Origin: a virus
Direction: 5' to 3' (one strand)
Length of the DNA: 64,000 bases
IMG/VR virus record: IMGVR_UViG_3300009151_000043
Location: 1-64,000 of that record
The notes below the pieces were generated by a model that did not search any database, was not told the origin of the DNA, and worked only from the letters and a program-made list of their open reading frames with translations. Each line of letters starts with the position of its first letter. Position 1 is the stretch's first letter. A program made the position numbers and the translations under genes. Below are positions 29,536 through 34,113 of the stretch, piece by piece.

Positions 29536-30104
29536 TCTTTTAAATATTCTACAGTTATTTTAATTTTCTCGTTAAAGATCTCCTGCAGGGCCTCGTTCTT
29601 TTCATCGTCATTACCTTCTTTCTCCCGCATCAAAGCCTGAGGAAATAGTGTTGGAGGTTTATGCATACCATAATCATAGAATATCTGGCCAGCGTATGTT
29701 CGTACCTCTGGAGAAAAATGCAGAGGTTCGCTTCTGATTATGTACGCTTCTGTTAAACCACAAATCAGCTCCTCAGCTTCTAGAGGGTTGAGTTCTTCAA
29801 GGCTATCTGGCTGATGGTTTAACAAGTAGTTTAACGTCTCAAACACAACAATATTATTCTCATACATGTCTGTAGTAAGAATTGTTATTGCTGCTTGCAG
29901 CTTATCGGACTGTAGATCAGATAGCTCACAATCAAAATCTTCCTGCAACTGCGCTTTAAGTACGGTAGGATCCCACTCATAACACTCGTTACCGTATTTT
30001 TTAGTGACTAGCCACAATAGCGCTGTGGCCGGAGCTTTATCGTCTGTAAGTATTTGTTTAGCTGCTTTCATACATAGATACAAAGAACCTCCCTTGGTGC
30101 GCAT
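29523..30104 (-). CDS. Hypothetical protein, probable virion-related
   Basis: 193 aa from ATG 30104; ATG 30071 (MKAAKQILTDDK) is an alternative start. Helical, with LLWLVTKKYGNECYEWDP, LQAAITILTTD and FSPEVRTYAGQIFYDYG blocks. Overlaps the AAA gene by 13 nt. I do not recognise the family; its place between head-type genes and an AAA ATPase makes a morphogenesis role possible. Confidence 0.7.
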   Translation of the reverse strand: MRTKGGSLYLCMKAAKQILTDDKAPATALLWLVTKKYGNECYEWDPTVLKAQLQEDFDCELSDLQSDKLQAAITILTTDMYENNIVVFETLNYLLNHQPDSLEELNPLEAEELICGLTEAYIIRSEPLHFSPEVRTYAGQIFYDYGMHKPPTLFPQALMREKEGNDDEKNEALQEIFNEKIKITVEYLKECTH

Positions 30105-30135
30105 CGTGGAGAGGCGTGGGAGGTGTTGTTTGATT

Positions 30136-33278: not shown

Positions 33279-33331
33279 GGGTAAACCTTCTCGCCGTGCA
33301 TGCAAACACAGCGAGAAGGCAACCTTTACCC
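33279..33331. terminator. Long hairpin, probable shared terminator
   Basis: GGGTAAA-CCTTCTCGC (33279-33294) pairs with GCGAGAAGG and TTTACCC (33311-33319, 33325-33331), with a 5-nt bulge and more pairing in the apex. It stands just past the stop of the plus-strand gene (33265) and at the 3' end of the minus-strand RNA island. On the minus strand TTTCTTTT follows about 8 nt later. It may serve both strands. Confidence 0.6.
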
Positions 33332-33612
33332 CAACCCGAAAGGGTCCAGGGTATTTATAGACGCCTGGCCGTCTTAGGGCGCAAATTTCTTTGCACCTCC
33401 ACCAGTCCTTGCGGACAATTTATACCTACGGACAAAGCCACCGCAATTCCAGTTTTGGTTTCTTGTTTACTGTAGGTATAAAAGTAAAAAGTGTTCTCCT
33501 TCGTGGTTAGGCGGGCTGCTGGAGAATACAGCCTATGACACAGGATGCCAACAAACCTGTGCACCAAGACACTCACGACTTGTCTTTTTCTTTGCAAAAA
33601 CCAACAAAGAAA
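33279..33612 (-). ncRNA. Candidate structured non-coding RNA downstream of tmRNA
   Basis: No gene fits here, yet the minus strand is full of perfect stems. In order: TTTCTTTG/CAAAGAAA (33612-33605 with 33594-33587); AAGACA/TGTCTT (33586-33581 with 33571-33566); CACAGG/CCTGTG (33561-33556 with 33544-33539); TAGGC/GCCTA (33535-33531 with 33512-33508), its loop holding TTCTCC that matches GGAGAA downstream; an 11-bp TTTATACCTAC/GTAGGTATAAA (33482-33472 with 33429-33419), its loop holding TTGCGG that matches CCGCAA; GGTGCAAA-GAAA-TTTGCGCC (33397-33378, GNRA loop); AGACG/CGTCT (33374-33359), its loop holding CCAGG that matches CCTGG; then a long end hairpin. The three loop matches would be H-type pseudoknots. 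A U-G pair and the GNRA loops fit the minus strand better than the plus. Confidence 0.6.
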
Positions 33613-33615
33613 GGG

Positions 33616-34051
33616 GGTGGACCCGAGGGGAGTTGAACCCCTGTCTCTAATACTTTTACAATCAATCACTTACAGCTTATCCGGTTGTTATATATTTCCT
33701 TCTACGGTAAACGGAAAACCTAGAGAAGAATCAAGTAAGCTTTAACTCTGCCTACTACAGCGAGTGGTCTATATCCCACCATTTTTTACAGGAGCTTGCA
33801 GTGTTTTGCAACTGCCCAGTTACCTGAGTCTGGGGTCCGGTACCTGCGAGCAAAGCTCGCTGCGGTTAGGCAGCGAGTGCTTCAGCGTCTTCAAACTCAA
33901 AAGAGTTCAAGATCGCGTCTGCTTCTGCAACGCTAGGCGCATACATGTTAGTGTTTGCGTTTAGGGTTTGTCCAGATTTTTAACGAGGCCAACCAGACTT
34001 CCTCGGCTGAGACTAATTACAACTATACTAGATCGAAACCAGTACGGGCCC
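33616..34051 (-). ncRNA. ssrA: tmRNA (transfer-messenger RNA)
   Basis: About 436 nt. Acceptor GGGCCCG (34051-34045) pairs with CGGGTCC (33625-33619), including the G3-U70 pair that alanyl-tRNA synthetase reads. It has the tmRNA D-arm TACTGGTTTCGAT, T-arm AGGGG-TTCAACT-CCCCT, and P2 TCTAGTAT/GTATTAGA. The resume codon GCA at 33958 follows CTAAAC. The tag frame (33958-33866) is 30 codons plus TAA, starting ANTNMYAPSV and ending EDAEALAA. A GCGAGC-TTT-GCTCGC hairpin follows the tag. The final CCA is not fully encoded (A-CC then C), so host CCA addition is expected. tmRNA frees stalled ribosomes and tags their products for proteolysis. Confidence 0.93.
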
Positions 34052-34083: not shown

Positions 34084-34113
34084 ATTATACCATTAAAACA
34101 GAGGAATATTCAA
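34084..34113 (-). promoter_or_regulatory. Promoter for the tmRNA
   Basis: Minus strand TTGAAT (34113-34108), 18-bp spacer and extended -10 TGGTATAAT (TATAAT at 34089-34084). Start predicted about 26 nt before the mature tmRNA 5' end, leaving a leader for RNase P to remove. Confidence 0.7.

Follow-up and report, generated by a model that had tools for sequence, protein, structure and literature searches.

The structures of the large phage RNAs GOLLD and ROOL have been solved, and to our knowledge no function is known for either. Type III antitoxins are usually tandem repeats accompanied by a toxin gene, and the HDV fold is a nested double pseudoknot (P1-P2-P3) with a catalytic C in J4/2. The definition of the Pistol ribozyme includes P2, P3, a two-nucleotide P3/P2 junction and ten highly conserved nucleotides (PMC4604425), and theta ribozymes sit directly behind phage tRNAs (PMC10879173). 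ToxI units are pseudoknots of 36 nt (PMC12373285, PMC5449768); the pseudo-ToxI of phage PhiTE (PMC3475682; cited in PMC5449768) provides a precedent for RNA mimicry by a phage.

The locus described here, 33279-33612 on the minus strand, lies in a window (the whole stretch of DNA that was analyzed, 64,000 nt) contained in a 95,418-base virus record. The phage RNA encoded there is real, built of modules and pseudoknotted, and Rfam 15 has no family that it matches. A preliminary description had regarded it as a single structured RNA; the structured RNA stands, whereas its unity does not, as the locus is a mosaic of independently inherited modules (A, X, B and C).

Setting and overall fold of the locus

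The locus is bounded by a tmRNA on one side and by a convergent 426-aa gene of unassigned family on the other (Table 1). In IMG/VR, the window phage has relatives among contigs of uncultured phages, the longest of 204 kb; INPHARED contains no GenBank phage matching the RNA or the 426-aa gene, and no RNA related to the stretch. The tmRNA, which the preliminary description had placed next to the locus, is detected there by RF00023; this model is complete at 33615, and the stretch is not part of the tmRNA itself. The tmRNA is not called by ARAGORN, has a long tag of 30 residues (ANTNMYAPSVAEADAILNSFEFEDAEALAA) and does not encode its 3' CCA. Similar long tags are also seen in related phages. The motif TTTNNNGGTATAATA of the likely promoter occurs once in the 64 kb, and TGGTATAAT also precedes the tmRNA in two relatives (L002 and L005). 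No terminator-like site was found between this promoter and the downstream RNA. The transcript 3' end is probably the long hairpin ahead of the convergent gene; most relatives have a hairpin at the equivalent place.

The fold energy of the stretch is -133.3 kcal/mol (z = -5.2), and 0 of 100 shuffled sequences are equally stable. Because the complement also folds well (z = -4.4), the fold alone is no proof of strand, and the decisive evidence must therefore come from homologues. All the stems and loops listed in the preliminary description are present in the sequence, and its view that no coding frame fits agrees with our result: the sole long frame on the minus strand (33355-33669, 104 aa) overlaps with the tmRNA, and neither Pfam nor PHROG has a match for it. 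The RNA had not been recognized, and an Infernal search of Rfam 15, including ROOL and all other families, likewise gave nothing reaching a gathering cut-off over the stretch; the best sub-threshold match is Pistol (33374-33329, 19.9 bits). GOLLD, for which the gathering cut-off is 150 bits, has no match in the window record (G000) even at E 10. A group I intron was also considered and has no match in the window; a true one sits instead in a tRNA of a relative (see below).

Table 1. Features of the locus and of related loci; positions are those of the window unless a contig is named.
Feature	Position	Strand	Remarks
Likely promoter of tmRNA and RNA behind it	34084..34113	-	TTGAAT, 18 nt, TG-TATAAT; 10/12, extended -10
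tmRNA	33615..34051	-	RF00023, 118 bits
Module A	33494..33612	-	double loop-tail pseudoknot RNA; compensatory changes, 7 distinct copies
Hairpin U	33587..33612	-	TTTCTTTG/CAAAGAAA
Hairpin S0	33566..33586	-	AAGACA/TGTCTT; loop carries S1 5' strand GTCGTG (33574-33579)
Hairpin S2	33514..33533	-	GGCTGT/GCAGCC; loop carries PK 5' strand TTCTCC (33521-33526)
3' strand of A	33494..33510	-	CTAAC; S1 3' CACGAA (33500-33505); PK 3' GGAGAA (33494-33499)
Module X, 11-bp hairpin	33419..33482	-	TTTATACCTAC (33472-33482)/GTAGGTATAAA (33419-33429); in no relative
Module B	33378..33416	-	hp1 GTCC-GCAA-GGAC; UGGUGGA (33398-33404); hp2 GGTGCAAA-GAAA-TTTGCGCC
Module C, H-type pseudoknot	33346..33374	-	P1 AGACG/CGTCT; PK CCAGG/CCTGG; A-rich linker ATAAATAC; AGACGGCCAGG at 33364-33374
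Long hairpin	33279..33331	-	GGGTAAA..CCTTCTCGC/GCGAGAAGG..TTTACCC; ahead of convergent gene; without classical T run
Large 3' domain	L035 ~16340-15980; L047 ~5790-5420	-	continues A+B+C
GOLLD-Pistol loci	L252 890-1374 (G016:17289-17773); L253 989-1470 (G018:78588-79069)

Module A: a mobile double loop-tail pseudoknot

Module A was compared in seven distinct copies (the window, L035, L047, L017, L013, L244 (= L247) and L246). Its strands are ordered as hairpin U, hairpin S0 with the S1 5' strand in its loop, a variable hairpin, hairpin S2 with the PK 5' strand in its loop, CTAAC, and the 3' strands of S1 and PK. The loops of S0 and S2 both pair with one contiguous 3' strand (CACGAA-GGAGAA).

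In the aligned blocks of the seven copies, which were verified against the sequences, 155 of 168 cells are paired; swapping of 3' strands among the copies gives a mean of 134, and none of 20,000 trials reaches 155. In alignment A2, 93% of cells are paired, vs. 82% in shuffles and 31-58% in slid alignments, and the covariation score is 0.36 vs. 0.14 in shuffles. As the copies are related sequences, all these shuffles somewhat overstate the significance. Hairpin U, the strands of which were picked by eye, pairs in all seven homologues, where its outer six pairs are formed in 42/42 cells and it adjoins S0; 2 of 5040 strand permutations do equally well. For S2, 40 of 42 cells are paired, a value reached by 4 of 5040 permutations. 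TTCTCC/GGAGAA (PK) is paired in 39 of 42 cells, with UA, AU, CG and GC all found at one position; four pair types at a single position are hard to explain without true pairing. As the pattern used for new copies of A fixed only GTGAGT, CAGCA and CTAACCACG, the strands of U, S0, outer S2 and the PK 3' strand were unselected for pairing. Single-copy energy z-scores were rejected as proof of A: those of L013, L244 and L246 are near 0, because the folding program cannot model pseudoknots, and the case for A thus rests on covariation.

These many compensatory changes bear out the pseudoknotted RNA that had been proposed, and redraw its first pseudoknot. TTCTCC/GGAGAA is retained, whereas TAGGC/GCCTA is unsupported because CTAAC is invariant in seven of seven homologues while its supposed partner varies; GGCTGT/GCAGCC covaries there. 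The S0 hairpin and the S1 pseudoknot GTCGTG/CACGA(A) had been overlooked.

Five copies of A are at the tmRNA site or its equivalent (window, L035, L047, L017 and L013), and those of L244 and L246 are at another site. The module starts 0-15 nt behind the tmRNA (window), a tRNA (L035, L047 and L244) or a stop codon (L013, L017 and L246). In L246 and L244, A is located between a gene for a PNKP-type kinase/phosphatase and one of unknown function. G006 and G009, which belong to the phage group of the window, have the same genes (90-94% identical), and there only one T separates the stop codon from the start codon. This empty site indicates that A has been gained or lost as a unit, and, together with the positions of A behind tmRNA, tRNAs and protein genes, that A is not tied to one host gene. 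A covariance model of A run on 22 records found only the known copies, one per record, and a 15-bit match (E 0.02). The A pattern has a single match, judged to be chance, in 84,980 bacterial and archaeal species genomes; its matches in L248 and L249 were also rejected as chance, S0 being unpaired and the surroundings different. A literature search with module A strings gave unrelated matches only, among the matches listed.

Modules X, B and C and the contents of the interval in relatives

The 11-bp stem of the preliminary description (X) is real, and is private to the window phage, so that TTGCGG/CCGCAA stays a putative pseudoknot. B has a plan common to L002, L003, L005, L035 and L047, with CCAC/GTGG pairs, read by eye, in hp1 of L047. 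Modules B and C together (33346-33416) recur behind the tmRNA in relatives.

Both helices of C had been proposed, and both show compensatory changes. P1 occurs as AGACG/CGTCT, GACTG/CAGTC, AGCTG/CAGCT, AGGTG/CATCT and CACTG/CAGTG, and the pseudoknot as CCAGG/CCTGG, CCGAG/CTCGG, CCAGA/TCTGG and CCCAG/CTGGG. The pairing of 40/40 is partly by construction, because several copies were listed by a rule demanding pairing; independent support is provided by position, shared letters and density in the sequence that follows the upstream gene (5 in 5.0 kb vs. 0.62 expected from unrelated contigs). Other matches to this rule in the phage group's own sequence are without the shared letters, and the window minus strand has one C only. 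In L035 and L047, reading by eye gives a C-like pairing in which P1 is shorter and the linker longer. The L007 interval, which has no tmRNA, keeps C about 45 nt behind a TGGTATAATACTAT promoter (TGGTATAAT) of the type preceding the tmRNA in relatives. In G006, the tmRNA is elsewhere in the genome, inside a tRNA cluster (G006:134682-135900, L264), and C there is therefore not tied to the tmRNA. Two tRNAs there flank a stretch that contains CTGGTGG and GAGACCAGGC and thereby recalls B/C. A loose B+C pattern scan of IMG/VR was too unspecific, with at least 119 matches; only L051, L052 and L105 were recognized as the element, all being copies of known loci.

Between the same flanking genes, contents vary among relatives, with tRNA-Met in some and modules A/B/C in others. 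The tmRNA is kept with no module in L010, L018 and L011, and the interval of the first two has a terminator-like hairpin only. In L004 (7279-7544; the same in L038), a tRNA(CAU) split by a group I intron (68.7 bits) is directly behind the tmRNA, and the L002 slot is occupied by a tRNA with an enlarged anticodon loop. The tRNA-like genes of L002 (7236-7334) and L172 (5597-5499, minus strand) have a common region of about 33 nt (TCCCTCAyGGTkAAGGrCC...) replacing the anticodon loop, and are tRNAs by Rfam, not by ARAGORN.

The preliminary description had mentioned GOLLD as known near tRNA genes, an apt remark, as two relatives carry it in this genome part (Table 1). In L046 (= L189, G016), GOLLD (150 bits) is between the tmRNA and the 426-aa gene, and Pistol (40.9 bits) follows about 10 nt later. 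In G018, GOLLD (141 bits, below the cut-off) and Pistol (47.4 bits) have the same spacing, and the 426-aa gene of this relative is some kilobases away. This order suggests that the GOLLD 3' end would be set by Pistol self-cleavage in G016 and G018; if general, the arrangement would explain the origin of the GOLLD 3' end. When IMG/VR was scanned with a pattern for this particular junction, only these two loci were found, and among the papers searched none names both GOLLD and Pistol.

In L035 (= L172) and L047, C continues into a 3' domain of about 350 nt, and the 20-22-bp stem that closes this domain differs at many pairs between the two; A+B+C plus this domain amount to an RNA of about 600-700 nt. 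The searched part of the large L035 RNA has no Rfam or INPHARED match. A TTAAGTGCCGCAATG scan gave 51 matches, which, apart from two known loci, have no wider similarity and were taken as chance.

Possible roles and comparison with known RNA systems

We regard it as close to an even chance that the stretch is a co-transcribed, processed, trans-acting structural RNA. Transcription would proceed from the tmRNA promoter through the tmRNA into A-X-B-C and end at the long hairpin. Host processing would free the 3' end of the tmRNA, whose gene does not encode the CCA, and a separate RNA of about 300 nt, or smaller pieces of it, would remain. The covariation demonstrates that in each pseudoknot a 3' tail pairs with the loop of a hairpin upstream, and the tied tails may produce compact modules with sheltered 3' ends. 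The modules move between phages as discrete cargo, inserted behind genes for tmRNA, tRNA or mRNA. The likeliest function would be that of a stable RNA which the phage uses in trans during infection, because free-standing GOLLD occupies this genome part in two relatives. Against this reading, GOLLD has a promoter-like sequence of its own and is unrelated in sequence, the A model does not score on it, and C in G006 is not tied to the tmRNA.

The main rival, which we consider unlikely, is a cis role in which the modules would shield the 3' end of the preceding tmRNA, tRNA or mRNA or take part in its processing, the pseudoknots blocking 3' exonucleases or marking a processing site. The short distance of A from the gene before it is consistent with such a role, as are the last paired strand being the 3' end of A and the U-rich sequence coming next in A and C. 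No promoter of A's own was found in any of the seven copies, each of which directly follows another transcribed gene, and this fits a cis role equally well. However, many relatives have a tmRNA without any module (L010, L018 and L011), the PNKP gene is kept without A in close relatives, and C stays in L007 without an upstream RNA gene.

A counter-defence role, in which the pseudoknots mimic an antitoxin RNA or another RNA partner of host defence and silence a toxin or sensor, seems improbable. The C pseudoknot, at 29-36 nt, is of ToxI unit size, the modules behave as gained and lost cargo, phage RNA mimicry has the precedent described above, and an abiF antitoxin-like motif (RF03085) is present at another gene in the same phage group. 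On the other side, neither tandem repeats nor a toxin gene is seen at the stretch, and no Rfam antitoxin matches it. We know of no toxin or defence RNA of such structure. Assignment as a type III toxin-antitoxin RNA was also rejected: there is one A per record and one C on the window minus strand, and none of the neighboring proteins matches a toxin family. The RNA may act as a decoy against abortive infection, but nothing links A or C to a defence system. The abiF motif in the window (30087-30123, minus strand; 47.2 bits, over the cut-off) is across the start of a conserved 193-aa gene, whose protein has no Pfam or PHROG match; in G012 it also exceeds the cut-off, five other relatives have weaker matches, and it is possibly a leader element or a decoy aimed at an AbiF system.

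A self-cleaving role, with C Pistol-derived or A HDV/theta-like and cleavage separating the tmRNA or maturing a 3' end, is very improbable: C is the best sub-threshold Pistol match in the window record and in the L005 record (18.4 bits in the latter; E about 0.01 per record in both), it is outscored in 22 records by two true Pistols only, it resembles Pistol in the size of P1, the loop of six bases and the AUAAAUA linker, GOLLD ends in a true Pistol in two relatives, and theta ribozymes have a comparable position, but C is without most Pistol consensus nucleotides outside P1 and the linker and has no conserved P2/P3 (PMC4604425), and A has no P3 hairpin between pseudoknot strand and S1' and no room for a catalytic junction.

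Small modular RNAs in a slot that holds GOLLD in a relative lend themselves, being compact, to structure determination, the search for binding partners and knockouts. The behavior of module A is that of a transferable RNA gene, for which the empty site serves as a comparison.

Compared with described systems, the locus resembles theta (HDV-like) ribozymes as a small pseudoknotted RNA directly behind phage tRNAs, but differs in topology and in that A is also behind protein genes; an HDV-like/theta identity of A was rejected because the strand order of the aligned copies lacks the HDV topology. ToxI and pseudo-ToxI share pseudoknots of about 36 nt and, as decoys, carriage by phages, whereas repeats, a toxin gene and a sequence match are absent here. 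C is like Pistol (RF02679) in its 5-bp P1, its six-base loop forming a pseudoknot and the A-rich linker in the window. P1 and the P1-loop pseudoknot are present and both covary, but the score of 19.9 bits is below the cut-off of 34.5; identity with Pistol was rejected as the core is deleted in the covariance-model alignment and P2, P3, the junction and the conserved nucleotides were not found. ROOL is similarly an ornate phage RNA, often near tRNA islands (PMC12286853), but no Rfam match to it exists in the window or in the searched part of the large L035 RNA. GOLLD (RF02032) is a structured phage RNA near tRNA/tmRNA genes, located in the same interval in L046 and close by in G018; A and C are unrelated to it in sequence, A uses loop-tail pairing vs. 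loop-loop in GOLLD, and the sizes are about 300 vs. 800 nt. An initial likeness of A to the GOLLD 5' domain (GUGUGC/GCACAC) was dismissed, as the A model gives at most 5.1 bits on both GOLLD loci with filters off and the pairing there is loop-loop. Tentatively, and with somewhat less than even confidence, we propose that A is the first of a new class of mobile phage RNAs to be described, characterized by the double loop-tail pseudoknot, and that the RNA of L035 and L047 represents a further large ornate class beside GOLLD and ROOL, of which the window would carry a compact form.
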